A DNA stretch of 41,788 nt from Phycicoccus flavus (GTDB lineage: Bacteria; Actinomycetota; Actinomycetes; Actinomycetales; Dermatophilaceae): positions 1 through 41,788 of the forward strand of contig NZ_SAYU02000038.1 in assembly GCF_004025965.2 (NCBI RefSeq), read 5' to 3'. The translations under genes were made by a program, and so were the position numbers. Shown in pieces: positions 1,775 to 16,325 of this stretch. A model generated the notes under the pieces. The model did no database searches. It saw nothing but the letters and a program-made list of their open reading frames with translations, and was not told the origin of the DNA. The stretch's first letter is position 1, and the number at the start of each line of letters is the position of its first letter.

Positions 1775-3598
1775 GTGTTCGGCATCCCGCGCGGGATCGC
1801 GGTCCTGTTCTCCCCGGAGAACCGGGTCCGGCTGCTCCTCGCGGTCGTCGGCTCGGTCGTCACGGCGTTCCTCGAGGTCGTCGGCGTCGCGAGCGTCGTG
1901 CCCCTCATGCAGCTGCTCACCGGCGCCGACACCGGGACCGGGCTCCTCGGACGGTTCGCCGACGTCTTCGGGAACCCGCCGCGCGACCGGCTGGCCCTCG
2001 TCATCGCGGTCCTCGTCTTCGCCTCGTTCATCCTCAAGGCGGTCATCGGCGTCGCGTTCCGGTGGTGGATGGCCGGCTTCCTCGCCCGTCAGGAGGCCGA
2101 CACCTCCCAGTCGCTGCTGCGTCGCTACCTGGCCGCCCCGTACTGGGTCCACCTGTCGAGGCACACGAGCGAGTTCAACCGGACGATGACCGAGTCGGCG
2201 GGACAGACCTACGCCATGGTCGTCACCGGCGCCATCATCGTCGCGACCGAGGCGGTCACCGTCCTCGCGCTGACCGTCGTCATCCTCGTCCTCGACCCCG
2301 TCCCCGCCGTCGTGGCCATCGTGTACTTCTCGGTGGTCGCCGTCCTCTTCCAGCGCACGGTCGGGCCCCGCGCCGAGAACGTCGGCCGGGTCTTCCAGGA
2401 GGCGTCGCTCGACATGTCGATGACGGCGTGGGAGACGATCCAGGGCATCAAGGAGATCCGGGTCCGCCGCACCTCGGACCAGTTCCTCGCCCGCTACCGC
2501 GAGGCGCGCCTGCGCTACGCCGGGGCCCGCCGCGCCAACGCCTTCCTCGCGGACCTGCCCAAGAGCATCTTCGAGCTCGTCTTCATCGGCGGGGTCGCGG
2601 TGCTCGTCGTCGTCGCCTTCTCCACCGGCAACTCCTCGACGACGCTGACCACCCTGTCGCTCTTCGTGGCCGCCGGCTTCCGGCTGCTGCCGAGCCTCAC
2701 GAGGATCATGGCCTCGCTCCAGCTCATCCGGACCGGGCGCGCGGGCCTGACGCTCGTCCTCGCGGACCTCACCGACCCCGACCTGCCCGACGTGCCCGGC
2801 GACGACCCCACCGCGACGGGCCGGATGCCGCTGACGGAGAGCCTCGTGGTCCGCGACGCCATCCACCGGTACCGGGACGGCACGACGAACGTCCTGGACG
2901 GGGTGTCCGTGGTCGTCCCGGCCGGCACCTCGGTCGCGTTCGTCGGCACGAGCGGCGCCGGCAAGACCACCCTCGTCGACACCGTCCTGGGTCTGCACGA
3001 ACCGGTCTCCGGCGAGGTCCTGGCCGACGGCCGGCCGATCACCGACGACCTCCCGGGCTGGCAGCGCAACGTCGGTCTCGTGCCGCAGGACGTCTTCATC
3101 CCCGACGACACCGTCCGCGCCAACATCGCCCTCGGCGAGCCCCCGGAGATCATCGACGAGGAGCGGGTCCTCGCCGCCGTCCGCGACGCGGAGCTGGAAC
3201 CCCTCATCGCCGCGCTGCCGGACGGTCTGGACAGCCGCGTCGGCGAGCGCGGCTCGCGGCTGTCCGGGGGTCAGCGCCAACGGCTGGGCATCGCCCGGGC
3301 CCTCTACCGCAAACCGGCCCTCCTCGTCCTGGACGAGGCCACCTCCGCCCTCGACAACGAGACCGAGCGGCGGGTCGCCGAGACCGTGGCGGCCCTGCGC
3401 GGACGGATGACCGTCATCATCGTCGCGCACCGCCTGTCGACGGTCCGCGACTGCGACCAGGTGGTCTTCCTCAAGGCCGGCCAGGTCGAGGCGGCGGGGA
3501 CCTTCGAGGAGGTCCGTCGTGCGAGCCCGGACTTCGCCCACCTGGTCCGCCTCGGGCGCCTCGAGCCGGTCCCCGCGGGGGGCGACCGTGCCGAGTGA
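1775..3598 (+). CDS. ABC exporter, fused membrane and ATPase domains (lipid-linked glycan flippase type)
   Basis: A 607-aa half-transporter, expected to work as a homodimer. Residues 1-320 form the six-helix exporter domain with hydrophobic stretches such as LLLAVVGSVVTAFLEVVGVA. The ATPase domain follows: Walker A VGTSGAGKTT near residue 390, signature LSGGQRQRLGIARAL near 495, Walker B LLVLDEATSALD near 518 and H-loop IIVAHRLSTV near 549. The GTG start has AGGAGG at ideal spacing. As first gene of a glycan operon, and with no Wzx-type gene visible, a PglK-like role in flipping an undecaprenyl-linked oligosaccharide is the best inference; lipid or peptide export is less likely. Confidence 0.9.
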   Translation: MFGIPRGIAVLFSPENRVRLLLAVVGSVVTAFLEVVGVASVVPLMQLLTGADTGTGLLGRFADVFGNPPRDRLALVIAVLVFASFILKAVIGVAFRWWMAGFLARQEADTSQSLLRRYLAAPYWVHLSRHTSEFNRTMTESAGQTYAMVVTGAIIVATEAVTVLALTVVILVLDPVPAVVAIVYFSVVAVLFQRTVGPRAENVGRVFQEASLDMSMTAWETIQGIKEIRVRRTSDQFLARYREARLRYAGARRANAFLADLPKSIFELVFIGGVAVLVVVAFSTGNSSTTLTTLSLFVAAGFRLLPSLTRIMASLQLIRTGRAGLTLVLADLTDPDLPDVPGDDPTATGRMPLTESLVVRDAIHRYRDGTTNVLDGVSVVVPAGTSVAFVGTSGAGKTTLVDTVLGLHEPVSGEVLADGRPITDDLPGWQRNVGLVPQDVFIPDDTVRANIALGEPPEIIDEERVLAAVRDAELEPLIAALPDGLDSRVGERGSRLSGGQRQRLGIARALYRKPALLVLDEATSALDNETERRVAETVAALRGRMTVIIVAHRLSTVRDCDQVVFLKAGQVEAAGTFEEVRRASPDFAHLVRLGRLEPVPAGGDRAE

Positions 3599-4490
3599 GG
3601 TGCCCGGGCTCGCAGTCGTCGTCCCGCACTACGGGGACCCGGCGCCGACGTCCGCCCTGCTCGACGCGTTGCGCGCCCAGACCGCGCCGCCGGTGCAGGT
3701 CGTCGTCGTCGACGACTGCTCCCCGGAGCCGTTCCCGGACCGGCCGGGGGTGCAGGTGGTCCGGCGCGCCGTGAACGGCGGGTTCGGGTCGGCCGTCAAC
3801 ACCGGGGTGGAGCAGGTCCGGGCCCCGATGCTGCTCGTGCTCAACAGCGACGTCTCCCTCGGCCCGACGTTCCTCGCCGACCTGCTCGCGGCCGCCCGGC
3901 CCTGGCTGCCCGCCGTCGTGGGTCCCCTCGTGCGGGACTCCCGTGGCGCACCGACCCCGACCGCGCGCCACTTCCCCACCGTCGGCCACCAGGTGGTCGA
4001 GTGGCTGACGCCCCTGGCACGCTTCCGGCACCACCGGGTCCTGCACGAGGCCGTGGGTCACGACACCCGCGCCGTGCCCGGCGTGGTCCTGCCCGTAGAC
4101 TGGGTGGTGGGGGCCGCCCTGCTCCTGCGCACCGAGGACTTCCGGGCGGTCGGCGGCTTCGACGAGCGGTACTACATGAACTCCGAGGAGATCGACCTGC
4201 AGCGACGGCTGCGCCGACGCGGGGTCCCGGCGGTCTTCGTCGGCACCGTCGAATTGGCCCACACCGGGGGCGGGTCGTCCGATCCCCTGCGGCGCCGGGC
4301 CTGGCTCGTGACCTCCCGGATGCGGTACGCGGAGCGGTGGGGTGGTCGCCGCCGGCTCGCCACCGCACTCACGGTCGCGACGGCCGCCAACGTCGCCGTC
4401 AACGGGGTCCGGCGCCTGGCCGGGCGCGACGTCGCCCCGATTGCCACCGCCCGCGAGGAGCTGCGGCTGATCCACGGGGGCCGGCGATGA
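3588..4490 (+). CDS. glycosyltransferase family 2 (rhamnosyltransferase-like)
   Basis: A 300-aa GT-A fold transferase. The fold is marked by VVVPHYGDP near the N-terminus, VVVDDCSPE at 39-47, NGGFGSAVNTG at 63-73 and the DxD-type LNSDV at 85-89. The acceptor-side signature GGFDERYYMNSEEIDL follows and is typical of dTDP-rhamnosyltransferase-like GT2 proteins. The GTG at 3588 overlaps the exporter stop by 11 nt. An open frame extends further upstream but lacks family similarity, so the start here is set by the first GT2 strand. Donor and acceptor are unknown. Confidence 0.88.
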   Translation: MPSEVPGLAVVVPHYGDPAPTSALLDALRAQTAPPVQVVVVDDCSPEPFPDRPGVQVVRRAVNGGFGSAVNTGVEQVRAPMLLVLNSDVSLGPTFLADLLAAARPWLPAVVGPLVRDSRGAPTPTARHFPTVGHQVVEWLTPLARFRHHRVLHEAVGHDTRAVPGVVLPVDWVVGAALLLRTEDFRAVGGFDERYYMNSEEIDLQRRLRRRGVPAVFVGTVELAHTGGGSSDPLRRRAWLVTSRMRYAERWGGRRRLATALTVATAANVAVNGVRRLAGRDVAPIATAREELRLIHGGRR

Positions 4491-5029
4491 GCACGGCGCG
4501 TCGCGTCGTCGAGGCCGCCCCCGGCCTCCGCTGGCACCTCGCCCGGGCCCGCGGGCCGCTCTACCGGCGAGCGTTCGCGGGCTTCGGTCCGGGGTCGGTC
4601 ATCGTCGCCCCGCTCGCCCTGCGCGGTGTCGAGCGGATCACCGTCGGGGCGGGGTGCGCGATCTACGAGCGCGTGTGGCTGCAGGCGGAGGCCGGCGGCT
4701 CGATCACCCTCGGCGACCGCGTCTACGTCGGCCACGACGTGCACCTGCACTCCATCGACCCGGTCGGCGTCGGGAGCGACACCGTGCTCGCCGACGGCGT
4801 GTTCGTCGCCTCCACCGACCACGACCGCAGCGACCGCTCGCGGGTGCACGGGACCGGCCCGGTGCACATCGGCGACCGCGTCTTCCTCGGCCAGCGGGCC
4901 GTCGTGCTCGGCGGGGTGACCATCGGCGACGGCGCCACGGTGGGCGCCGGTGCCGTCGTCACCCGCGACGTACCCGCCGGCGCAACGGTGGCCGGCGTGC
5001 CCGCCCGGCCCGTGGGGTCGCGGCGATGA
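4487..5029 (+). CDS. hexapeptide-repeat acyltransferase (LbH fold)
   Basis: A 180-aa protein of the left-handed beta-helix acetyltransferase class. Isoleucine-patch repeats run from about residue 45 to the C-terminus (ITVGAGCAIYERVWL, ITLGDRVYVGHDVHL, VHIGDRVFLGQRAVVLGG, VTIGDGATVGAGAVV). It ends in VPAGATVAGVPARPVG, the usual close of WbbJ/MaaA-like O-acetyltransferases. It probably O- or N-acetylates a sugar in the glycan. It starts in an ATGA overlap with the GT2 gene and ends in an ATGA overlap with the epimerase. Confidence 0.88.
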   Translation: MSTARRVVEAAPGLRWHLARARGPLYRRAFAGFGPGSVIVAPLALRGVERITVGAGCAIYERVWLQAEAGGSITLGDRVYVGHDVHLHSIDPVGVGSDTVLADGVFVASTDHDRSDRSRVHGTGPVHIGDRVFLGQRAVVLGGVTIGDGATVGAGAVVTRDVPAGATVAGVPARPVGSRR

Positions 5030-6093
5030 GGGTCCTCGTCACGGGGGGCGCCGGGTTCATCGGCCAGCACCTGGCCCGCCGCCTGCACGCCGGCGGCCAC
5101 GACGTGCTCGCCCTGGACTCGCTGCTGCCCCAGGTACACGCCGACGCGGGCGCGGCCCGCGCGGCCTTCCCCGGCCCGGTCGTCGTCGGGGACGTGGCCG
5201 ACCCCGCCGCGTGGGCCGCCCTGCCCGAGGGCACGGTCGACGCCGTCGTGCACCTGGCCGCGGAGACCGGGACCGGGCAGTCGATGTACGAGGTCGAGCG
5301 CTACCACCGGGTCAACGTCGAGGGCACCCGCCTGGCGGCGCGGTGGGCCCGCGAGCACGGCGCCGCGCTGGTCTCGCTCAGCTCGCGCGCCGTCTACGGC
5401 GAGGGCGGGTACACCTGCCCCGAGCACGGCTCCACCTTCGGCCCCCGCTGCTGCCGGCACGGGCAGCCGGTGGCCTCCACCGAGGACGACCCGCACCGCC
5501 CGGTGTCGGTCTACGGCGAGACGAAGTCGCTGGCCGAGCAGGCCGCGGCCGACGAGGGCGAGGGCGTCGTGCCGCTCACCGTGATCCGCCCGCAGAACGT
5601 CGTCGGACCGGGCCAGGCCCTGCACAACCCGTACACCGGGGTCCTCGCGGCGTTCCTCGCCATGCTGCGCGAGGGCCGGCCGCTCACGGTCTACGGCGAC
5701 GGCCACCAGACCCGCGACGTCGTGCACGTCGAGGACCTCGTGGCCCTCGTCGCCTGGGCCCTCGACCGCCCGCCCGCACCCGGCGAGGCACGGGTCGTCA
5801 ACTGCGGCAGCGGGGTCCGCACCACCCTCGTCGGCCTCGCCGAGGCCGCGGCGGCGGGCGCCCCCGTCCCCTCCCCCGGCGTCACCCACCTCGACGTCCA
5901 CCGGGCCGGCGACATCGAGCACGCCTGCGCCGACCTCACCCGGCTGCGCTCGCTCGGGGCCCCGCCGCCGCGCTGGTCCGCCGCCGACGCCGTGGCCGAC
6001 TTCGTCCGTCGCTCCTGGCAGCAGCCCGGCGCGGACGCGGCCGCGTGGGACGACGCCCTCGACGAGCTCGCCCGCCGCGGCCTCACCTCGTGA
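5026..6093 (+). CDS. NAD-dependent epimerase/dehydratase (extended SDR) with Cys/His insertion
   Basis: A 355-aa extended short-chain dehydrogenase acting on a nucleotide sugar. The Rossmann motif GGAGFIG is at 7-13 and the catalytic YxxxK is Tyr163-Lys167 (YGETK). RPQNVVGPGQ and a DVVHVEDL segment fit sugar epimerases. Between the Ser strand and the Tyr lies an insertion with Cys131, His134, Cys142, Cys143 and His145 that could bind a metal. From memory, dTDP-L-rhamnose 4-epimerases (WbiB/Tll type) carry a YGEG...CPEHG segment like this, so that reaction is my first guess; UDP-sugar 4-epimerase is the alternative. Overlaps both neighbours by 4 nt. Confidence 0.88.
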   Translation: MRVLVTGGAGFIGQHLARRLHAGGHDVLALDSLLPQVHADAGAARAAFPGPVVVGDVADPAAWAALPEGTVDAVVHLAAETGTGQSMYEVERYHRVNVEGTRLAARWAREHGAALVSLSSRAVYGEGGYTCPEHGSTFGPRCCRHGQPVASTEDDPHRPVSVYGETKSLAEQAAADEGEGVVPLTVIRPQNVVGPGQALHNPYTGVLAAFLAMLREGRPLTVYGDGHQTRDVVHVEDLVALVAWALDRPPAPGEARVVNCGSGVRTTLVGLAEAAAAGAPVPSPGVTHLDVHRAGDIEHACADLTRLRSLGAPPPRWSAADAVADFVRRSWQQPGADAAAWDDALDELARRGLTS

Positions 6094-7100
6094 CGCCGCG
6101 CTCACGGGTCCTCGTCCTCAGCCCCGCCTTCCACGGCTACTGGCGCTCCCTGGAGCGCGCGCTGGCGGGGCGGGGCCACGAGGTACGAACCGTGCGCTAC
6201 GACGAGCGCGGGCCGGCCGGCCGCCTCGGCGCCAAGGCCCTGCACGAGCTGCCGGAGCGTCTCGGCGCCTCCGACGCGCGGCGCCGGGCGGCCCTCGGTC
6301 GCCGGGCGAGGAACGCGGTCACCGCCCACGACCCCGACGTGCTGGTCGTCGTCAAGGGCGACGCCTTCGACGACGACTTCTGGGACCTGCTCGCCGCCCG
6401 CCGGCAGCGCCGGGTGCTCTGGCTCTACGACGAGCTGCGGCGCACGGGGCACACCGCCCTGTCCCTGGCCCTCGCCGGCCCCGTCGCCTCGTACTCGCCC
6501 CTGGACGTCGAGGCCCTGCGGGCCCGCGGGCTGCGGGCCGAGCACGTCCCCCTCGCCCACGACCCGCACGAACCGGTCACCCCCTACCCGCCCCGCGACG
6601 AGGTCGTCTTCGTCGGGGCGCGCTACCCCGGCCGCGAGGCCCTGCTGCGCTCCCTCGCCGACGCCGGTCTCCCGGTCCGCGCCCACGGACGCGACTGGTC
6701 CGAGCACCCGGTGGACCGCGCGCGCACCTGGCGCCTCGGCACACCGGGACTGCCGGCCGGACGTGACCTGGCCCGCCCGGACGCCTACGGTGTCATGGCG
6801 GCGGCGACCGCCACGCTCAACATCCACGGGGACCAGGACGGCTTCACGATGCGGACCTTCGAGGCGTGCGGGGTCGGCGCGGTCCAGCTGGTCGACCGGG
6901 CCGACGTCGCGCGGCACTACGAGCCGGGCACCGAGGTCGCCGTCTTCTCGGGCGCCGACGAGGCGCGCGACCTCGCCCGACGGGCCCACACCGACCGGCC
7001 CTGGGCCGACGCCCTCCGTCGGGCCGGCCGCGCCCGCACCCTGGCCGAGCACACCTTCGACGTCCGCGCGCGGTCCCTGGAGGCGCTGTGGACGGCCTGA
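6090..7100 (+). CDS. CgeB-like glycosyltransferase
   Basis: A 336-aa protein resembling the CgeB/spore-maturation glycosyltransferase group (GT-B fold). The N-terminal Rossmann strand is VLVLSPAFHGYW. The C-terminal half has the hallmark segment ATLNIHGDQDGFTMRTFEACG followed by GAVQLVDR, comparable to the NIHR...S..RTFEA.ACG motif of CgeB proteins. GTG start, GTGA overlap with the epimerase. Donor sugar not predictable. Probably cytoplasmic and peripheral. Confidence 0.8.
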   Translation: MTPRSRVLVLSPAFHGYWRSLERALAGRGHEVRTVRYDERGPAGRLGAKALHELPERLGASDARRRAALGRRARNAVTAHDPDVLVVVKGDAFDDDFWDLLAARRQRRVLWLYDELRRTGHTALSLALAGPVASYSPLDVEALRARGLRAEHVPLAHDPHEPVTPYPPRDEVVFVGARYPGREALLRSLADAGLPVRAHGRDWSEHPVDRARTWRLGTPGLPAGRDLARPDAYGVMAAATATLNIHGDQDGFTMRTFEACGVGAVQLVDRADVARHYEPGTEVAVFSGADEARDLARRAHTDRPWADALRRAGRARTLAEHTFDVRARSLEALWTA

Positions 7101-8146
7101 CCCACCCGCGCGACCTCGAGGCGTGGCACCGGTGGCAGCTGGGCCGGCAGCCGCTCGCCCGGCGGGTCCGCCGGGTCGCGGGGGTCCTCGCGGAGATCGC
7201 CCGCCCGTCCCGTCGACCCGGCGGCGTCGTCGTCACCCGAGGCGGCACCGGCCCCGTACGCCTGCTCGTGGTCCTCGACGCCACCTCGCCGACCTCCCTG
7301 GCCGCCCTCCTGCGGCCGCTGGGCCACCTGCCGCTCGGGGACGTCGCCGTCGTCTCGCGCGACGCCGTCAAGCCCCTGCTCCCGCCGTGGGTGTGGCGCG
7401 AGAGCCAGGGCGTCGCGCACGAGGACCTGCCACGCCTGGCGTCCGGCGCCCCCGCGGTGCTCTCCGTCGGGCACTTCCTGCCCCTCGGCGCCGCGGCCCG
7501 CACGGCCGTCACCGACCCGTCGCGGTTCGTCACGGTGCAGCACGGCCTCCTCACCCCGCACGCCCCTCCCCTGGCCGAGGGCACCACCCTGCTGGCCTGG
7601 AGCGCCGGCGACGCCGACTTCTGGCGCTCCGGCCGCGACGACGTGAGCGCCCACGTCGTCGGCTCCCAGCTGCTGTGGGACGCCGCCGACCACCCCGCGA
7701 CACCGGACCCCGCCGCGCCGCCGGTCTTCCTCGGCCAGCTGCACAGCGCCGAGCTCGGCCGCGAGACCGCCGAGCGGGCCGCCGAGGAGTTCTGCCGCAC
7801 CCACGGGGCGCGCTATCGGCCGCACCCCTCCGAGACCGACCGCCGGTCCCGCGCCACGCACGCGCGCTGGGAGGCCGAGGGGATCGTCCTGGACCGGTCC
7901 GGCACCCCGCTGCGCGAGCTCGGGGCGCCGGTGGCGAGCGTGTTCTCGACCGGAGTGCTCGAGGCCGCCGCGGCCGGGCTGCCGAGCGGCGTCTTCCTCC
8001 CCGACCCGCCGTCCTGGGTGGCCGGGTTCTGGTCCCGCTACGGCCTGCGTCCCTGGGACGAGCGCCCCACCCCCTCGCCCGAACGGCCCGCCACCGAGCC
8101 GTCCCGCGCAGCGGCCACGGTGCTGGAGGGGATGATGGGGCGGTGA
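7088..8146 (+). CDS. uncharacterised GT-B-like protein, candidate nonulosonate transferase
   Basis: A 352-aa protein I do not assign to a named family. It has features of GT-B glycan enzymes: VTVQHGLLTPH in mid-protein (a VQHG motif as in capsule and CDP-glycerol transferases), RYRPHPSE, and a late VFSTGVLEAAAAGLPSGVF resembling the donor-site ST..EA..G.P pattern. It has no transmembrane helix or signal peptide. It lies directly before the CMP-nonulosonate synthetase and overlaps it in GTGA, which suggests it may use the CMP-sugar; that is inference from position only. GTG start overlaps the CgeB-like gene by 13 nt. Confidence 0.7.
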   Translation: MDGLTHPRDLEAWHRWQLGRQPLARRVRRVAGVLAEIARPSRRPGGVVVTRGGTGPVRLLVVLDATSPTSLAALLRPLGHLPLGDVAVVSRDAVKPLLPPWVWRESQGVAHEDLPRLASGAPAVLSVGHFLPLGAAARTAVTDPSRFVTVQHGLLTPHAPPLAEGTTLLAWSAGDADFWRSGRDDVSAHVVGSQLLWDAADHPATPDPAAPPVFLGQLHSAELGRETAERAAEEFCRTHGARYRPHPSETDRRSRATHARWEAEGIVLDRSGTPLRELGAPVASVFSTGVLEAAAAGLPSGVFLPDPPSWVAGFWSRYGLRPWDERPTPSPERPATEPSRAAATVLEGMMGR

Positions 8147-8841
8147 GGATCCTCTGCGTCGTGCCCGCCCGGGGCGGGTCCAAGGGCGTCCCGCGCAAGA
8201 ACGTCCGCGAGGTCGCCGGCCGGCCGCTGCTCGCGTGGACCGTCGAGCAGGCGCTCGCGGCCCGGCCGGCCATGGACGTCGTGGTCTCCACCGACGACGA
8301 CGAGATCGCCGAGGTCGCGCGGGCCGCCGGCGCCCTCGTCCCCTTCCGCCGTCCGGCCGGGCTCGCCCGGGACGACACGCCGACCGAGCCGGTCGTCCGG
8401 CACGCCATCGAGGCCGCCCGCGCCGCCGACGCCGCCCCCGACGCCGTGATGCTGCTGCAGGCCACCTCCCCCGTGCGGCTGCCGGGCACGGTGTCGCGGG
8501 CCGTCGCGCAGTTCACCGCGACCGGCGTCGACAGCCTCGTCGGCGTCGTGCCGCAGGCGCCGTTCATCTGGACCGACGGCCCCGAGCCGTCCGCCGCCTA
8601 CGACGTCACCGCCCGCCCCCGCCGCCAGGACCTCACCCCCGCGACCCTGCGCTACCGCGAGACCGGGTCGCTGTACCTCACCCGCACCTGGGTCTACGAC
8701 GAGCTCGACAACCGCATCGGCGGTCGCGTGGGGCTCTTCGTCATGGACGAGTCCGAGGGCGTCGACATCGACACCGTCCTCGACCTCGCCGTCGCGGAGC
8801 AGCGCCTGCTCGCCGCCACCGTCACCGGAGCCTCCACATGA
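8143..8841 (+). CDS. neuA: acylneuraminate cytidylyltransferase (CMP-nonulosonate synthetase)
   Basis: Activates a nonulosonic acid (sialic, legionaminic or pseudaminic type) with CTP to give the CMP-sugar donor. It has 232 aa, the usual length. The P-loop signature ARGGSKGVPRKN sits at 9-20, VVVSTDDDEIAEVA follows, then LLQATSPVR (substrate site). The metal-binding end is EGVDIDTVLDLAVAE. GTG start overlaps the previous stop, and its stop overlaps the neuB fusion start. Which nonulosonate is used cannot be decided; the symbol denotes the family. Confidence 0.93.
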   Translation: MRILCVVPARGGSKGVPRKNVREVAGRPLLAWTVEQALAARPAMDVVVSTDDDEIAEVARAAGALVPFRRPAGLARDDTPTEPVVRHAIEAARAADAAPDAVMLLQATSPVRLPGTVSRAVAQFTATGVDSLVGVVPQAPFIWTDGPEPSAAYDVTARPRRQDLTPATLRYRETGSLYLTRTWVYDELDNRIGGRVGLFVMDESEGVDIDTVLDLAVAEQRLLAATVTGAST

Positions 8842-11081
8842 TCATCGAACGCACCGTCACCCCCTACGTCGTCTACGGCGAGGACCCGGTCCTGCGCGCC
8901 CTGGAGAAGATCACGGCCAACAAGGCCCGGATCGTCTTCTGCGTCTCCGAGCACGGCCACCTGCTCGGCTCGATCTCCGACGGCGACGTCCGCCGCTGGA
9001 TCGCCGCCCAGGACGACGTCGACCTCTCCCGCCCGTGCGCCGACGTCGCGAACACCGGCGCCGTCCGGGCCCCGGCCACCGCCGCCCCGAGCGAGGTGCG
9101 GACGCTCTTCACCCCCAGCGTCGACCACGTCCCGCTCCTGGACGACCAGGGCCACCTCGTCGCGGTCGCCGTCAACCGCAGCGACGTCTTCCGGGTGGGC
9201 CGGCACGAGGTCGGCAAGGACCGGCCGGTCTTCGTCATCTCCGAGATCGGCATCAACCACAACGGGTCGGTCGACCTGGCCAAGCACCTGGTCGACCTCT
9301 CGGCCGCGGCCGGCGCCGACGCCGTGAAGTTCCAGCTGCGGGACATGGCCGCGCTCTACCGCGGCGGCTCGGGCAGCAGCGCCGGGGAGGACCTCGGCCC
9401 GCAGTACACCCTCGACCTGCTCTCCCGGTTCAACCTCCCCGCCGAGCGGCTCTTCGAGGTCTTCGACCACGCGGCGGGCCTGGGCGTCGACGTCATGTGC
9501 ACCCCCTGGGACCTGCCGAGCGTCGACGCCCTCGTCGAGTACGGCGTCCCCGCGCTGAAGATCGCCTCCGCGGACCTCACCAACCACACGCTGCTGCGGC
9601 ACGCCGCCGCCTCCGGCACCCCGCTCGTCGTCTCGACCGGGATGTCCACCGAGGCCGAGATCCGCGAGAGCGTCGCCCTCCTGCGCGCCACGGGGACCCC
9701 CTACGCCCTCCTGCACTGCCAGTCGACGTACCCGGCGCCCTTCAAGGACGTCAACCTCTCCTACCTCCCGCGGCTGGCCGAGCTCGGCGACTGCCCGGTG
9801 GGCTACTCGGGGCACGAGCGCGGCTTCCACGTGCCGCTGGCCGCCGTCGCCCTCGGCGCGACCATCGTCGAGAAGCACTTCACGGTCGACCGCTCGATGG
9901 AGGGCAACGACCACAAGGTCTCGCTGCTGCCCGAGGAGATGCGCGAGATGGTCCAGCGGATCCGCGAGGTCGAGGAGGCGCTCGGCGGCACCGGCCCGCG
10001 GCAGGTGTCCACCGGCGAGATGATGAACCGGGTCAACCTGGCCAAGAGCCTCGTCGCCGCCCGCGACATCGCACCGGGCGAGGTCATCGACGCCGGTGCC
10101 GTCGACGTCAAGAGTCCCGGCCGCGGCCTGCAGCCGAACGCCCTGCCGAAGCTCGTCGGGCGCACCGCGAACCGGGCCCTGGCCGCCGGCGAGTTCTTCT
10201 ACGCCTCCGACCTCGCCGACGGCGTGCCGAAGGGCCGCGACCACACCTTCCGGCGGCCCTGGGGGCTGCCGGTGCGCTACCACGACGTCGAGGCCCTCAC
10301 CGCCGACTGCACGCCGGGCTTCCTAGAGTTCCACTTCTCCTACAAGGACCTCGAGATCGACCCCGCCACCGCGATCCGCGGGCCGCTGCCGATGGGCTAC
10401 GCCTGCCACGCGCCGGACCTGTTCGCGGGCGACTTCATCCTCAACCTCGCGAGCGAGGACGACGCGCACTGGGAGCGCTCGGTCGAGGAGCTCCAGCGGG
10501 TCATCGAGACGACCCGCTCGATGCGGGGCCTGTTCACCCAGGACGCCGACCCGGTCGTCATCTCCAGCGTCGGCGGGTTCACCTCCGACCGGCACGTGCC
10601 GGTGGACGAGATCCCGGACATGTACGCCCGGGTGGCGGCCGGCCTGGACCGCGTCGACGACTCCGGGGTCCGCCTGGCCTGCCAGACCCTGCCGCCCTTC
10701 CCCTGGTACATGGGCGGCCAGCTGTACTGCAACCTCTTCGTCCGGCCCGACGACACCGCCGCCTTCGCCGAGCGCTACGGCCGCCGCCTGTGCCTCGACG
10801 TGTCCCACACCAAGCTCGCGTCCACCTTCCTCGGCATCCCCTTCTCCGAGGCCGTCGACGCGCTCGCGCCGCACGCGGAGCACCTGCACCTCGTCGACGC
10901 CGTCGGGGTCGACGGCGAGGGCGTCCAGGTCGGCGACGGCGAGGTCGACTGGGCGGTGCTCGCGGAGCAGCTGGACGCGCTCGCCCCCGACGCCGGGTTC
11001 ATCCCGGAGATCTGGCAGGGCCACGTCAACGGCGGCGAGGGGTTCTGGGTGGCCCTCGAGCGGCTGGAGCAGTGGTTCTGA
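8838..11081 (+). CDS. CBS - NeuB - SAF - TIM-barrel isomerase fusion (nonulosonate synthase)
   Basis: A 747-aa multidomain protein; plain NeuB proteins are about 340-360 aa. Residues 1-125 are a CBS pair (GSISDGDVRRW; HVPLLDDQGHLVAV). Residues 130-390 form the NeuB TIM barrel that condenses an N-acyl sugar with PEP (EIGINHNG from Glu136, KIASADLTN, STGMSTEAE, EKHFTVDRSMEGNDHKVSL from Glu345). Residues 395-462 are an SAF/antifreeze-like domain. Residues 485-747 resemble AP-endonuclease-2/xylose-isomerase-like sugar isomerases (LEFHFSYKD, LCLDVSHTKLAS, HLHLVDAVG, FIPEIWQGH). There is no stop or frameshift, so this is a true fusion. The C-terminal domain could supply or adjust the hexose substrate, and the CBS pair could sense nucleotides; both are inference. 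Confidence 0.93.
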   Translation: MIIERTVTPYVVYGEDPVLRALEKITANKARIVFCVSEHGHLLGSISDGDVRRWIAAQDDVDLSRPCADVANTGAVRAPATAAPSEVRTLFTPSVDHVPLLDDQGHLVAVAVNRSDVFRVGRHEVGKDRPVFVISEIGINHNGSVDLAKHLVDLSAAAGADAVKFQLRDMAALYRGGSGSSAGEDLGPQYTLDLLSRFNLPAERLFEVFDHAAGLGVDVMCTPWDLPSVDALVEYGVPALKIASADLTNHTLLRHAAASGTPLVVSTGMSTEAEIRESVALLRATGTPYALLHCQSTYPAPFKDVNLSYLPRLAELGDCPVGYSGHERGFHVPLAAVALGATIVEKHFTVDRSMEGNDHKVSLLPEEMREMVQRIREVEEALGGTGPRQVSTGEMMNRVNLAKSLVAARDIAPGEVIDAGAVDVKSPGRGLQPNALPKLVGRTANRALAAGEFFYASDLADGVPKGRDHTFRRPWGLPVRYHDVEALTADCTPGFLEFHFSYKDLEIDPATAIRGPLPMGYACHAPDLFAGDFILNLASEDDAHWERSVEELQRVIETTRSMRGLFTQDADPVVISSVGGFTSDRHVPVDEIPDMYARVAAGLDRVDDSGVRLACQTLPPFPWYMGGQLYCNLFVRPDDTAAFAERYGRRLCLDVSHTKLASTFLGIPFSEAVDALAPHAEHLHLVDAVGVDGEGVQVGDGEVDWAVLAEQLDALAPDAGFIPEIWQGHVNGGEGFWVALERLEQWF

Positions 11082-12151
11082 GCGCTCGCCCGCTCGCCCT
11101 CTGGGTCCTGCCGGTCTCCGACCTCGGCGGGGTCGCCCGGCACGTCCTCGACGTCGCCGAGGTCGGCGTCCCCGGGTGGCGGCTCGCCGTGCTCTGCCCG
11201 CCCGGGCCGCTCGCCGACCGGCTCCGGGCCCTCGGCGCCGACGTCCGCACCGCACCGGTCGGACCGGACGACGGGGTCCGCGCGTCCGTGGCCGCGGTCC
11301 GGCGGGCCGTCCGGGAGCTCGCGCCGGCGGTCGTCCACTCGCACCTGTCCTGGGCCGACGTCGTGGCCGCCGCGGCGACCCTTGGCTCGCCCGCCGCGCT
11401 CGTCACCACCGAGCACGGCATCGCCGACGACGACCTCGTCTACCACGGCACCGCGTGGCGGGCGCGGCTGAAGGAGGCGCTGCACACCGCGCGCCTGCGC
11501 CGCGCCGACGCGGTGGTCGCGGTGTCCGGGGCGACCGCCCGCAGCATCACCCGCAAGTGGCACCCGGGCGCCCGGACCCCGCTGCACGTCGTCCGCAACG
11601 GCCTGGACCGGCCGGCCACGCCTCCGGTCCGCGAGCCCGGGCTGCACGTGGTCTCGGTGAGCCGGCTCGCGCCGGAGAAGCGGCTCGACGCGCTGCTCCA
11701 TGGGTTCGCCGTGCTGCACCGGGAGCACCCGCGGGCGCGGCTCACCCTGGCCGGCACCGGACCGGACGAGGCGGCCCTGCGCTCCCAGGCCGACACCCTC
11801 GACGTCGCCGGGGCGGTGACCTTCCCCGGCCACGTCGAGGCCGCCGACCTGCTGGCCCGCGCCGACGTCCTCGTCCAGCTGTCGGTGTGGGAGAACTGCT
11901 CGTACGCGCTGCTCGAGGCCCTCGGCCACGGCTGCGGCGTCCTCGCCTCCCCCGTCGGCGGCAACCCCGAGATCCTCCCCCGTGCCGCCCTCGTCGACCC
12001 CCGCGACCCCGCGGCGGTGGCGGCCGGCGTCGTCCGCCAGGGCCTGGACCCGACCACCCGCCCACGCCTGGACCCCGCCTGGCCCACCCGCGCGGACATG
12101 ACGGCGGCGGTCTCGGCCGTCTACGCGGGCGCCGTGGAGCCCCGGCGATGA
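11072..12151 (+). CDS. glycosyltransferase family 4
   Basis: A 359-aa GT-B retaining glycosyltransferase. The glycine-rich N-terminal region is VLPVSDLGGVARHV. The GT4 domain has VSRLAPEKRLDALL, LTLAGTGPDEAAL, FPGHVEAADLLARADVLVQLS and the donor-site WENCSYALLEALGHGCGVLAS. The start is uncertain: GTG at 11072 overlaps the neuB fusion by 10 nt; a CTG at 11078 would give the usual 4-nt overlap. Acts on the cytoplasmic face on a lipid-linked intermediate. Confidence 0.88.
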   Translation: MVLSARPLALWVLPVSDLGGVARHVLDVAEVGVPGWRLAVLCPPGPLADRLRALGADVRTAPVGPDDGVRASVAAVRRAVRELAPAVVHSHLSWADVVAAAATLGSPAALVTTEHGIADDDLVYHGTAWRARLKEALHTARLRRADAVVAVSGATARSITRKWHPGARTPLHVVRNGLDRPATPPVREPGLHVVSVSRLAPEKRLDALLHGFAVLHREHPRARLTLAGTGPDEAALRSQADTLDVAGAVTFPGHVEAADLLARADVLVQLSVWENCSYALLEALGHGCGVLASPVGGNPEILPRAALVDPRDPAAVAAGVVRQGLDPTTRPRLDPAWPTRADMTAAVSAVYAGAVEPRR

Positions 12152-13200
12152 CCCGGGTCCTCCTCGCGGCCAACAACGCCGAGGTCGGCGGCGGTGAGGT
12201 CATGCTGCTCGCCACCGCCGAGGTGCTGCGCGACCTCGGCGTCGAGACCGCGGTCGCCGGCCCGGTCCTCGCCGAGGGGGCCACCGGCGGCGTCGTCGAC
12301 CAGGCCGAGCAGCGGGGGTTCCCCGTCCTCCGCCTGCCCGCGCAGCGGCGCGCCGCGATGGCCGCGCTGCGCTCGGCGGCCCGCGGGAGCGAGGACTGGC
12401 TGTGGTGCCACGGGCTCGCGCCCGCCCTCGCGACGGCGGGCCGCCAGCGCCGGGTCGTCCACGTGCACCAGGCGCCGTCGGCCACCCACCGCGCCGCCAT
12501 CGGGGTCTCCCGGCTGCGGGCCGAGGCCGTCCTCGTGCCCAGCCACGCGATGACCGCCGCCGTGCCCGGCGCCACGGTCGTGCCCAACTGGACCGACGCG
12601 CTGCCCGTGCGGGACGCGGACGGCGCGCCGGACCGGCCGGTGCGGGTGGGCTTCATCGGCCGGCACTCCGCCGACAAGGGCCTCGACGTGCTGGCCCGGG
12701 CCGTCGAGCGGCTGGCCGCCGCCGAGCCCGACGGCTGGCGCCTCGTCCTCGCCGGGGACGGCCGCTTCGTCCCGGCGGAGCAGACCGCCCGGGTCGACGC
12801 CGCGCTGGCTCGGGTCGGGGCGGTGACCGACCGCCTCGGCTGGTGCGAGCGGGCCGACTTCTTCGGCGCCGTCGACCTCGCCGTGTTCCCCTCGACGTGG
12901 GCCGAGCCGTTCGGGCTCGTCGCCGCGGAGGCGATGAGCGCCGGGGTCCCCCTCGTGGTGTCGGACGCCGGCGCGCTGCCGGAGGTCGTCGGAGCCGGCC
13001 ACCCGTGGGTGGTGCCGGCGGGCGACGACGCGGCCCTGGCCGCCGTGGTCCGCGCGTGCGCCACGGCCCCGCCAGAGGTGCGCAGGGCCGCGACCGCCGC
13101 GGCCCGCGAGCGCTGGCAGGAGCACTACTCGCCCGCCGCCGGACGCGCCCACGTGGCCCACCTCCTGCGCCGCCTCGGGATCGGCACGTCCGCCCCCTGA
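12148..13200 (+). CDS. glycosyltransferase family 4
   Basis: A 350-aa GT-B enzyme. N-terminal LLAANNAEVGGGEVMLL carries the Gly-rich loop. The C-terminal donor domain shows VGFIGRHSADKGLDVLARA, LVLAGDGR, LGWCERADFFGAVDLAVFPS and the EX7E-type AEPFGLVAAEAMSAGVPLVVSD. ATGA overlap with the preceding GT4. The next gene follows after 57 bp, the widest gap in the operon. Sugar specificity unknown. Confidence 0.88.
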   Translation: MTRVLLAANNAEVGGGEVMLLATAEVLRDLGVETAVAGPVLAEGATGGVVDQAEQRGFPVLRLPAQRRAAMAALRSAARGSEDWLWCHGLAPALATAGRQRRVVHVHQAPSATHRAAIGVSRLRAEAVLVPSHAMTAAVPGATVVPNWTDALPVRDADGAPDRPVRVGFIGRHSADKGLDVLARAVERLAAAEPDGWRLVLAGDGRFVPAEQTARVDAALARVGAVTDRLGWCERADFFGAVDLAVFPSTWAEPFGLVAAEAMSAGVPLVVSDAGALPEVVGAGHPWVVPAGDDAALAAVVRACATAPPEVRRAATAAARERWQEHYSPAAGRAHVAHLLRRLGIGTSAP

Positions 13201-13257
13201 CGTCCGCCGTCTGCGAGGATGACGGGCGACCCCGACGACGAGAGCGAGCGTTGCCCC

Positions 13258-14238
13258 ATGCCCACAGCCCTGATCACCGGCATCACCGGTCAGGACGGCC
13301 TGTACCTCGCCGAGCTGCTGCTCGGCAAGGGCTACGAGGTGCACGGCATCGTCCGCGGCCAGAACAACCCCAAGCGCGACCTCGTGGCCGAGGTCGTCCC
13401 GGAAGTCACCCTGCACACCGGCGACCTCACCGACCTGTCCTCGCTCATGCGGGCGATGTCGGCCACCCAGCCCGACGAGGTCTACAACCTCGGGGCGGTC
13501 TCCTTCGTCGCCTACTCGTGGGACAACGCGCGGGTCACCACCGACGTCACGGGCAACGGCGTCCTCAACATGCTCGAGGCCGTCCGCCTCTTCTGCGGCT
13601 CCGACCCCACCCGCACGCGCTTCTACCAGGCGTCCAGCTCGGAGATGTTCGGCAAGGTCCAGGAGGTGCCGCAGCGCGAGACCACCCTGCTGTGGCCGCG
13701 CTCGCCCTACGGCGTCGCCAAGGTCTTCGGCCACTACATGACGATCAACTACCGCGAGTCCTACGGGATGCACGCGTCCTCGGGCATCCTCTTCAACCAC
13801 GAGTCGCCGCGGCGCGGACCGGAGTTCGTCACCCGCAAGGTCTCGATGGCCGTCGCGCGCATCGCCCTCGGCCTCCAGGACCGCATCGTCATGGGCAACC
13901 TCGACGCGCAGCGGGACTGGGGCTTCGCCGGAGACTACGTCGAGGGCATGTGGAGGATGCTGCAGCAGCCGGCCGGCGACGACTACGTCCTCGCCACCGG
14001 CGAGACCCACTCCATCCGCGAGCTGCTCGACATCGCCTTCTCCCACGTCGGCATCGAGGACTGGTCCGACCGGGTCGGCCAGGACCCGCGCTTCATGCGG
14101 CCGGCCGAGGTCGACCAGCTCATCGGCGACGCGAGCAAGGCCCGCGACCGGCTGGGCTGGCGGCCCACCGTCGGCTTCGACGAGCTCGTGCACATGATGG
14201 TCGACCACGACCTCTCGGTCCTGCGCGCGGCCCGGTGA
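13258..14238 (+). CDS. gmd: GDP-mannose 4,6-dehydratase
   Basis: Makes GDP-4-keto-6-deoxy-D-mannose from GDP-mannose. It has 326 aa, slightly shorter than most family members (about 340-370). Rossmann motif TGITGQDG at 7-14. Catalytic set Ser127, Glu129 (SSSEMFG), Tyr151 and Lys155 (SPYGVAK). Family signatures NHESPRRGPEFVTRK, NLDAQRDWGFAGDYVEGM and RPAEVDQLIGDASKA are all present. ATG at 13258 matches the conserved N-terminus; an in-frame ATG at 13219 would add 13 residues. Directly followed, with GTGA overlap, by a paralogue. Confidence 0.93.
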   Translation: MPTALITGITGQDGLYLAELLLGKGYEVHGIVRGQNNPKRDLVAEVVPEVTLHTGDLTDLSSLMRAMSATQPDEVYNLGAVSFVAYSWDNARVTTDVTGNGVLNMLEAVRLFCGSDPTRTRFYQASSSEMFGKVQEVPQRETTLLWPRSPYGVAKVFGHYMTINYRESYGMHASSGILFNHESPRRGPEFVTRKVSMAVARIALGLQDRIVMGNLDAQRDWGFAGDYVEGMWRMLQQPAGDDYVLATGETHSIRELLDIAFSHVGIEDWSDRVGQDPRFMRPAEVDQLIGDASKARDRLGWRPTVGFDELVHMMVDHDLSVLRAAR

Positions 14239-15188
14239 CCGTCGCCCTCGTCACCGGAGCCACCGGCCAGGACGGGGGCTACCTCGTCGAGCGCCTGCTC
14301 GCCGAGGGCACCGAGGTGCACGGCCTGGTCCGCGGCGAGGACCTCGGCGGCGGCCCGGTGCCCGACGGGCTCGTCGTCCACGAGTGCGACCTCGGCGGGC
14401 CGGCGGCCGACGTCGCCGCCGTCGTCGACCGGGTCGCGCCCGACGAGCTGTACAACCTCGGCGGCGTCAGCTCGGTGGCCCAGTCCTGGGCCGAGCCGCT
14501 GCTGACCACGACGGTCAACGGCACCGCGGCGGTCGTCCTGCTCGAGGCCGCCCGCAGCACGCAGGAGCGCACCGGCCGCCCGGTGCGGGTGGTGCAGGCC
14601 GCGAGCGCGGAGATCTTCGGGGAGCCAGAGCACTCACCGCAGGACGAGCGGACCGCGATCCGGCCGGTGAGCCCGTACGGCGCGGCCAAGGCCCTCGCCC
14701 ACCACGCCGTCGGCATCGCCCGGGCCCGGGGGCAGCACGCCACCTCCCTCGTCCTCTACAACCACGAGTCTCCGCGCCGCCCGCCGAGCTTCGTCACCCG
14801 CAAGATCACCTCGACCGTCGCGGCCATCGCCGCCGGCCGCGCCGACCGGATCGTCCTCGGCAACCTCGACGCCCGCCGCGACTGGGGGTGGGCGCCGGAC
14901 TACGTCGACGCCATGGTGCGGGCGGTCCGGCACGACACCCCCGGGGACTACGTCGTCGCCACGGGCGAGGCGCACACCGTCCGCGACTTCGTGGCCGCCG
15001 CCTTCGCGCGGGCGGGGGTCGAGGACTGGGAGCGGCTCGTCACCGTCGACCAGGCGCTGGTCCGCCCGGCCGACCCCAGCCTGCTCGTCGGCGACGCGAG
15101 CCGGGCCCGCGAGGAGCTCGGCTGGGCGCCCACCGTCGGCTTCGCCGAGCTCGTGGCGCGGATGGTCGACGCCGAGGAGCCCTCGTGA
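14235..15188 (+). CDS. second Gmd-like SDR (GDP-mannose dehydratase/GDP-ketosugar reductase family)
   Basis: A 317-aa paralogue of the adjacent gmd. Rossmann motif TGATGQDG at 7-14. Catalytic residues Ser124, Glu126 (ASAEIFG), Tyr148 and Lys152 (SPYGAAK) are kept. It retains NHESPRRPPSFVTRKI and NLDARRDWGWAPDYVDAM, but the conserved RP-EVD-GD segment is changed to RPADPSLLVGD. It could be a second dehydratase or have become the Rmd-type 4-reductase giving GDP-D-rhamnose; the pairing favours the latter, but sequence alone does not decide. Overlaps both neighbours in GTGA. Confidence 0.85.
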   Translation: MTVALVTGATGQDGGYLVERLLAEGTEVHGLVRGEDLGGGPVPDGLVVHECDLGGPAADVAAVVDRVAPDELYNLGGVSSVAQSWAEPLLTTTVNGTAAVVLLEAARSTQERTGRPVRVVQAASAEIFGEPEHSPQDERTAIRPVSPYGAAKALAHHAVGIARARGQHATSLVLYNHESPRRPPSFVTRKITSTVAAIAAGRADRIVLGNLDARRDWGWAPDYVDAMVRAVRHDTPGDYVVATGEAHTVRDFVAAAFARAGVEDWERLVTVDQALVRPADPSLLVGDASRAREELGWAPTVGFAELVARMVDAEEPS

Positions 15189-16312
15189 CCCACCGGCGGC
15201 CCGACGGGCGCACCGTGGCCATCGCGCACGACTACCTCACCCAGCGCGGCGGGGCGGAGCGGGTCGTCCTCGCGATGACCCGGGCCTTCCCCGGGGCCCC
15301 GGTGCACACCCTGCTCCACGAGCCCGGGTCGATCTACCCCGAGTTCGCCGGGCAGGACGTGCGCCCCTCGCCGCTCAACCGGGTCGGGCCGGTGCGGCGC
15401 GACCACCGGGCCGGGCTGCCGCTCTACGCCCCGGCGGCCTCGGCGACGCGGGTCGAGGCCGACGTCACCGTCGTGTCCTCCAGCGGCTGGGCGCACGGCT
15501 TCCGGCACACCGGCCGGTCGGTCGTCTACTGCTACTCCCCCGCCCGCTGGCTCTACCAGACCGACACCTACCTCGGTGGTCCCGCGCGGCGCTCGCCCAA
15601 GGGTGTCGCCCTGCTCGCGCTGCGACCGGCCCTGCGCCGCTGGGACGCCGCGGCCGCCCGCCGCCACGACCGCTACCTCGCCATCTCCCGCGTGGTGCGC
15701 GACCGGATCCGCGACACCTACGGCCTCGACGCCGCCGTCGTGCCCGCCCCGCACGCCATGGACGCCGGGGCCGAGCGGGAGCCGGTGCCGGAGCTCGCCG
15801 ACTGGGCCGGCGAGCGCTACCTCCTCGTCGTCTCGCGCCTCCTGCCCTACAAGAACGTCGGGGCCGTGGTCGAGGCCGTCCGCGGGACCTCCGAGCGGCT
15901 CGTCGTCGTCGGGGACGGCCCGCTGCGGCGCGCCCTGGTCGCCGGGGCGCCGGACACCGTCCGCCTCGTGTCCGGCCTCACCGACGCGCAGGTCCGCTGG
16001 GTCTACGCCCACGCCGGTCTCCTCGTGGCGCCGAGCGTCGAGGACTACGGCCTCTCACCACTGGAGGCCGCCGCCTTCGGGGTGCCCGCCCTCACCCTCG
16101 GCGCCGGCGGCTACCTCGACACCGTGGTCGAGGGCACGACCGGGCTGCACGTCCGGGCGCCCGAGCCCGCGCTGCTGCGCGACGGCATCGCCCGCGCCCG
16201 GGCCCACCCCTTCGACGCCGGCGCCCTGCGCGCCCACGCCGAGACCTTCACCGAGCCCCGCTTCCACGAGCGGCTGCGGGCCGAGGTCGACGCCCTCGGG
16301 GCGGCGTCGTGA
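15185..16312 (+). CDS. glycosyltransferase family 4 (mannosyltransferase-like)
   Basis: A 375-aa GT-B enzyme. N-terminal AIAHDYLTQRGGAERVVLAM is typical of WbaZ/mannosyltransferase-type GT4 proteins. YCYSPARWLYQTDTYL fits the same group. The donor domain has LLVVSRLLPYKNVGAVVEA, LVVVGDGPLR, VSGLTDAQVRWVYAHAGLLVAPS and EDYGLSPLEAAAFGVPAL. GTG start overlaps the Gmd paralogue. A GDP-mannose or GDP-deoxyhexose donor would fit the neighbours, but this is inference. Confidence 0.88.
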   Translation: MTHRRPDGRTVAIAHDYLTQRGGAERVVLAMTRAFPGAPVHTLLHEPGSIYPEFAGQDVRPSPLNRVGPVRRDHRAGLPLYAPAASATRVEADVTVVSSSGWAHGFRHTGRSVVYCYSPARWLYQTDTYLGGPARRSPKGVALLALRPALRRWDAAAARRHDRYLAISRVVRDRIRDTYGLDAAVVPAPHAMDAGAEREPVPELADWAGERYLLVVSRLLPYKNVGAVVEAVRGTSERLVVVGDGPLRRALVAGAPDTVRLVSGLTDAQVRWVYAHAGLLVAPSVEDYGLSPLEAAAFGVPALTLGAGGYLDTVVEGTTGLHVRAPEPALLRDGIARARAHPFDAGALRAHAETFTEPRFHERLRAEVDALGAAS

Positions 16313-16325
16313 CCGCGGGGCGACC

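Follow-up and report, generated by a model that had tools for sequence, protein, structure and literature searches.

Contig NZ_SAYU02000038.1 of Phycicoccus flavus, analysed over its whole length of 41,788 nucleotides (hereafter the window), carries a polysaccharide gene run on its plus strand, from about 1775 to 17918. The run comprises an ATP-binding cassette exporter, glycosyltransferases, an acetyltransferase, epimerase/dehydratases and a polyprenyl glycosylphosphotransferase. Within it lies an uninterrupted frame of 747 codons that, according to its translation and Pfam matches, encodes in this order a CBS pair, a NeuB domain condensing phosphoenolpyruvate (PEP), a SAF cap and an AP_endonuc_2 barrel. 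The ATG of this fused gene overlaps the stop codon of an upstream cytidine monophosphate (CMP)-sugar synthetase gene (Table 1). By analogy with known systems, the fused protein is probably a synthase for a nonulosonate without a 5-N-acyl group, that is, for a product of the 2-keto-3-deoxynononic acid (Kdn) type.

Table 1. The fused synthase gene, its domains and its conserved neighbours in the window.
Feature	Position	Strand	Basis
Fused nonulosonate (probably Kdn-type) synthase, four domains, 747 aa	8838..11081	+	Translation, Pfam, relatives, alignment
CBS pair, residues 1-112; SDGDVRRW motif at residues 47-54	8838..9173	+	Pfam, predicted structure, PDB match
NeuB PEP-condensing domain, residues 131-384	9228..9989	+	Pfam, NCBIfam, alignment to Neisseria meningitidis NeuB
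SAF cap, residues 403-459	10044..10214	+	Pfam, alignment
AP_endonuc_2 / D-tagatose-3-epimerase-like barrel, residues 475-747	10260..11078	+	Pfam, alignment, structure comparison
CMP-sugar (nonulosonate) synthetase, CTP_transf_3	8143..8841	+	Pfam; homologue in 71/81 loci
Conserved 352-aa protein without Pfam or NCBIfam match	7088..8146	+	Homologue in 65/81 loci
Glycosyltransferase (Glyco_trans_1_2), conserved cassette	6090..7100	+	68/81 loci
GT4 glycosyltransferase, conserved cassette	11072..12151	+	70/81 loci

Pfam places NeuB at residues 151-384 (E 5.5e-79), SAF at 403-459 (E 1.6e-12) and AP_endonuc_2 at 521-731 (E 3.4e-18). Of the CBS pair it detects the first repeat only (residues 9-56, E 1.4e-6); both repeats are seen in an alignment to PDB entry 4o9k and in the predicted structure (mean predicted local distance difference test score 89.6). 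PF03102 (265.5 bits) and SAF (48.2 bits) both score above their cut-offs, which assigns the protein to the NeuB/sialic acid synthase superfamily. The original prediction, made from the sequence letters, had proposed one intact frame joining a CBS pair, NeuB, SAF and a C-terminal xylose-isomerase-like barrel, and translation, domain searches, the 4o9k match and the predicted structure confirm this make-up. A longer mechanical open reading frame (ORF) starting at 8235 was rejected as the gene, because the listed relatives resemble the frame from 8838 in their starts as well as in their lengths (745-769 aa in 112 of 120).

A search with the last 288 residues (460-747) as query (E ≤ 1e-3; 7996 candidates scored) yielded at least 1827 matching proteins. 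All 120 relatives listed carry NeuB, SAF and AP_endonuc_2, and most also have a CBS match. In a genome scan, the best 80 of 212 stretches encoding a relative were examined, giving 81 loci together with the window. The match includes the barrel at all 80, with 54-88% identity over the best segment. Since these loci reach the barrel and catalytic-type residues are invariant in 60 aligned relatives, a chance origin of the four-part architecture is excluded. The 80 loci come mostly from Nocardioides, Rothia, Kocuria, Micrococcus, Microbacterium, Sinomonas and Phycicoccus, the last providing the closest named relatives (87-88% identity), and one comes from a cyanobacterium, Moorena. Among 102 matching plasmid records, one Ensifer plasmid carries a relative (47.8% identity over the full length), and a partial relative (P0261, 608 aa) is recorded as Klebsiella pneumoniae. 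The architecture had at first been taken to be unusual; the counts of matching proteins and stretches show that it is instead common, and little is left of that claim.

The distribution of the fusion is nevertheless sporadic: of 394 genomes drawn evenly from the host's class, six, the own genome among them, have the barrel, each time in a frame of at least 712 aa and never alone. In a wider search for barrels standing by themselves (120 proteins listed of 385), many of the proteins lie on contigs of 1-3 kb. Some barrel-only proteins, such as P0134 (271 aa, 3.88-Mb contig) and P0148 (283 aa, 8.7-Mb contig), are on long contigs and could be either independent genes or broken ones. Searching the barrel-only proteins against NCBIfam gave nothing useful on function. 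At one locus (L064, Phycicoccus sp. HDW14, genome G020), the NeuB match consists of two overlapping pieces and the locus match of 2237 bases is not a multiple of three; a frameshift or an assembly error in this fused gene is likely.

To compare individual residues, the 60 relatives were aligned using the numbering of N. meningitidis NeuB (1xuu, 4ipi, 4ipj) as reference. The fused protein shares with this enzyme the condensing and SAF domains, and E25, K53, Q55, T110, K129, S132, S154, H215, E234, H236 and D247 are all identical; it is to such residues that the PEP-binding, metal-binding and catalytic roles of NeuB are assigned. The residue aligned to Y186 is also retained, and N74, N184 and F288 are replaced by Leu, Ser and Asn. 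The meningococcal enzyme differs in having neither CBS pair nor barrel, and in carrying Arg314 where the fused protein has Ser426 of its SAF cap. This position is Ser in 55 of the 60 relatives, Gly in 3 and a gap in 2, so that Ser is present in 55 of the 58 with a residue. The arginine presumably contacts the N-acetyl group of the substrate, and the PDB titles of 4ipi (R314A) and 4ipj (R314K) record its mutation. Campylobacter jejuni PseI retains it, as do seven of eight unfused NeuB proteins from plasmid records, five of these seven being accompanied by recognizable Leg, neuC or Pse genes. The fused protein thus lacks the arginine of a NeuB that uses N-acetylhexosamines. Its scores stay below the equivalog cut-offs of both TIGR03569 (N-acetylneuraminate synthase; 308.5 against 399.65 bits) and TIGR03586 (PseI; 237.9 against 340.25 bits). 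In Caulobacter crescentus NeuB, a substrate-binding Arg of the antifreeze-like domain is essential, R322A being inactive (PMC7591256). R322 probably occupies the position of R314. At position 184, the Ser of the fused protein is also found in Pse enzymes (PMC7371886).

An assigned role, which together with a common architecture would have counted against the original prediction, is partly in print. The neuB gene of Serratia marcescens KL1/KL2 is a 2241-bp ORF (2244 bp here) encoding a NeuB family domain (pfam03102) together with COG1082, a protein of near-equal length that is tied to sialic acid and to a Kdn capsule (PMC9000132). Its deletion lowers sialic acid fourfold in a thiobarbituric assay and abolishes the cell-associated capsule, and complementation restores both (PMC9000132). 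The polysaccharide contains Kdn and N-acetylneuraminic acid (Neu5Ac) at about 20:1, and both disappear upon deletion of the capsule variable region; the readout for the neuB mutant was thiobarbituric sialic acid, the loss of Kdn being reported for the region deletion (PMC9000132). In the cited passages only two sialic acid genes are named, neuA and neuB, and the authors suggest that the extra COG1082 domain may confer additional properties (PMC9000132). The likeness of this NeuB (UMH9 / gn773) to the fused protein, drawn from the published description only, extends to the NeuB plus COG1082 content, the adjacent neuA and the link to a surface polysaccharide. However, it belongs to another phylum, and no CBS pair is mentioned for it, the term CBS being absent from the main text (PMC9000132).

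A second published relative, YP_002104 / NP_711794 of Leptospira interrogans, ends in a domain with homology to endonucleases; a combined synthase and phosphatase role in making Neu5Ac, a sugar documented in that organism, was proposed for it (PMC3438082). It is likewise compared by description only, sharing NeuB and the C-terminal endonuclease-like domain, and it differs in being read as a legionaminic or neuraminic acid synthase within a full legionaminic pathway cluster. When Pfam matches are set beside the published descriptions, the fused protein has the domain content of the Serratia and Leptospira type, NeuB with a C-terminal AP_endonuc_2/COG1082-like domain. Two other sources, one on the 290-aa SfmA (PMC3765264) and the other PMC7371886, were set aside, as their cited passages do not concern the fusion.

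The mammalian, algal and Bacteroides route to Kdn leads from mannose 6-phosphate to Kdn-9-phosphate and then to Kdn (PMC6200933, PMC13214540). The chemistry of the Bacteroides thetaiotaomicron Kdn-9-phosphate synthase and phosphatase, condensation of mannose 6-phosphate with PEP followed by dephosphorylation, is like that which we propose for the fused protein (PMC6200933). The Bacteroides phosphatase, in contrast to the fused AP_endonuc_2 barrel, is a separate protein. It belongs to the HAD family.

According to our proposal, the NeuB and SAF domains would join PEP and mannose 6-phosphate into Kdn-9-phosphate, and the fused barrel, as a putative metal-dependent hydrolase on the endonuclease IV/sugar isomerase fold, would remove the phosphate. 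The product of the overlapping upstream synthetase gene would then make CMP-Kdn, and the CBS pair would sense CMP-Kdn or another nucleotide and throttle the enzyme. Given a Kdn product, the case for a phosphatase barrel falls a little short of evenly balanced. The combination of a Kdn-type synthase, a barrel acting as 9-phosphate phosphatase and delivery to a cell-surface polysaccharide is the best of the readings, but is held tentatively, at well below even odds. We consider improbable the most far-reaching version, a regulated one-polypeptide pathway in which a new kind of phosphatase, acting on Kdn-9-phosphate and built on the endonuclease IV/xylose isomerase fold but with Gln in its metal site, is joined to a CBS sensor of CMP-Kdn. 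As a cassette with the synthetase, this pathway would have spread not only through the actinobacteria but also to single cyanobacteria and proteobacteria at least.

The barrel has the fold of the ketose 3-epimerases (D-tagatose 3-epimerase type), and structure comparison puts these epimerases and endonuclease IV at about equal distance from it; a search of a viral structure library gave no usable match. Residues H524, Q616, D654, H657, H684, E694, E724 and H729 are identical in all 60 relatives. All 38 invariant columns of the alignment, whose rows are 47-88% identical to the first, fall in the barrel, metal-type residues included, a count that does not rank the other domains lower, as these are gapped in the fragment rows. 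Of the two metal-binding Glu residues of ketose 3-epimerases, that on strand 8 is kept (Glu724) and that on strand 5 is Gln616, without exception among the 60. The strand-5 Glu is a catalytic residue of these epimerases, and its replacement by Gln would be expected to stop epimerase chemistry. Endonuclease IV has nine ligands around a trinuclear metal site; His524, D654, H657, H684 and E724 of the barrel fit this list, but the strand-5 Gln and a strand 4 without His do not. His524 aligns with a His of a deoxyribonuclease IV (L095; 355.4 bits in NCBIfam, cut-off 244).

The main alternative follows the original prediction but puts mannose in place of an N-acetylhexosamine: as an isomerase or epimerase, the barrel would supply NeuB with its hexose, channelling for instance mannose or mannose 6-phosphate made from fructose or fructose 6-phosphate. 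We regard it as rather unlikely, though little less likely than the combination proposed above. The strand-5 Gln of all 60 relatives speaks against it, given that 13 further proteins of the family encoded in the own genome carry Glu (11) or His (2) at this position and that MJ1311 carries Glu, as does the phosphatase proposed for Leptospira (PMC3438082). Moreover, among 31 genomes (the own one, 98.4% complete, and 30 chosen from the 80 loci), 26 already encode a type I phosphomannose isomerase. UDP-N-acetylglucosamine (UDP-GlcNAc) or GlcNAc derivatives, on which an assay of the barrel had been suggested, are probably the wrong sugar for it.

A second alternative, and a distinctly improbable one, is an animal-like Neu5Ac-type synthase acting on N-acetylmannosamine (ManNAc) 6-phosphate, with the barrel as Neu5Ac-9-phosphate phosphatase. 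The proposal for L. interrogans and the Neu5Ac documented there (PMC3438082) support it, as do strong NanE matches in 10 of the 31 genomes, but Arg314 is lost, Kdn is the dominant Serratia sialic acid (PMC9000132), and three of the 31 genomes, named below, have no ManNAc source of the families searched above the cut-offs. In the own genome, a profile search found no PF02350 (NeuC-family) protein, which led us to reject a NeuC-like substrate supply there, nor a second, ordinary NeuB besides the fused one. PF02350 is absent from 11 of the 31 genomes. NanE matches occur in 21, ten of them strong (at least 120.9 bits) and eleven weak (19-34 bits), four of the weak ones being above the cut-off (G000, G014, G017 and G026), and an AGE-family match occurs in 15, including the own genome. 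Three genomes (G010, G013 and G022) have no match above the cut-off to any of these three families of ManNAc or ManNAc-6-phosphate sources, and a NanE match of 28.1 bits is all that G017 shows across them; phosphomannose isomerase is encoded in all four, as in the own genome. Because G010, G013 and G022 lack the three ManNAc-source families yet encode phosphomannose isomerase, their gene content argues against a fixed ManNAc requirement.

Two observations weigh against a Kdn-type product. Most carriers do have some possible ManNAc source. In addition, the Ser at position R314 is not specific to the fusion, since an unfused 355-aa NeuB on a plasmid of Streptomyces sp. NBC_01237 (L090, 5953-7020) has it as well; it would thus mark a lost contact rather than the fusion and is no proof of Kdn. 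This unfused gene sits in a natural-product-like run, with glyoxalase/dioxygenase, flavin mononucleotide (FMN) dehydrogenase, transketolase and HAD domains according to Pfam and others recognized by their start sequence.

Least probable is a barrel outside the pathway, whether structural, oligomerising, sensing or acting on another polysaccharide sugar: it would suit the Gln at the usual catalytic position and the fact that no experimental activity of the fused barrel was found among the papers listed by searches of the open-licence PMC literature, but hardly the invariant columns or the occurrence of the barrel in long frames in all six positive genomes of the class.

With regard to control of the proposed Kdn-type synthase, the N-terminal part (residues 14-119) finds its best PDB match in 4o9k, in the CBS pair of an arabinose-5-phosphate isomerase (E only 5.5e-4), followed more weakly by the corresponding pair in 3k2v (E 0.042); the fused protein and the isomerase share a DGDxRR motif. 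In the isomerase, the pair is joined to a sugar isomerase domain whose fold is a different one. Entry 4o9k was reportedly solved with CMP-3-deoxy-D-manno-octulosonic acid (CMP-Kdo), although a literature search gave no paper on it; were this so, CMP-Kdn would be the obvious candidate ligand of the fused pair. The resemblance makes nucleotide-linked control plausible and suggests that the CBS pair may give nucleotide-sugar feedback. That a CMP-sugar exerts this feedback is possible, and we hold it with less than even confidence. No paper treating a CBS pair on NeuB was found among those listed by searches of the open-licence PMC literature.

The genes around the fusion are conserved as a cassette. 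The synthetase, nearest to PseF in NCBIfam although below its cut-off (132.4 against 205.7 bits), lies directly upstream on the same strand, within 200 bases, in 65 of the 71 loci that have it; of the ten loci without it, five begin within 900 bases upstream of the fusion. The 352-aa protein displays conserved QHG, LGQxH, YRPHP and FSTG motifs, and bacterial sialyltransferases are characterized by HP and S/T motifs. It probably represents an undescribed family of CMP-nonulosonate transferases, judging from these motifs. Among the 26 neighbour clusters present in at least 10 of the 81 loci, Pfam and NCBIfam searches of the window gene or one representative revealed no aminotransferase, NeuC or phosphatase. 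The window also contains two dehydratase-type genes, homologues of which are present at few of the 81 loci (14 and 17). The synthetase and the fusion therefore probably suffice to make the nonulosonate from a housekeeping sugar. The two dehydratase-type genes are adjacent (13219-15188, plus strand) and belong to the GDP-mannose 4,6-dehydratase family; the second scores 266.3 against a TIGR01472 cut-off of 415 and is possibly a reductase or a dehydratase of a different kind. On the Ensifer canadensis plasmid pT173e (L082, 9756-14313), a ManC/AlgA-type gene, a CMP-sugar synthetase gene and the fused synthase gene are consecutive. The first, of the PMI/GMP type, has NTP_transferase and MannoseP_isomer domains (Pfam), and the plasmid table lists no genes there.

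The architecture is thus already published and common, and its function partly assigned in print. What the present analysis adds is the Kdn reading of the family as a whole, the loss of R314 in the relatives while the catalytic residues stay, the lack of a NeuC-family gene in the own genome, the conserved pair of synthetase and fusion, and the conserved strand-5 Gln of the barrel. Relatives are commonly annotated as N-acetylneuraminate synthase despite the missing substrate-site arginine. The teichulosonic acid region of Streptomyces coelicolor reportedly corresponds to SCO4873-SCO4882. Kdn polymers are mentioned for Streptomyces walls (PMC11481543), and a link of the fusion to such streptomycete polymers is conceivable. 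If the family makes Kdn, a check of the single residue at R314 for Ser could help to flag Kdn-type synthases, and bacterial Kdn coats would be commoner than the few reported cases suggest.

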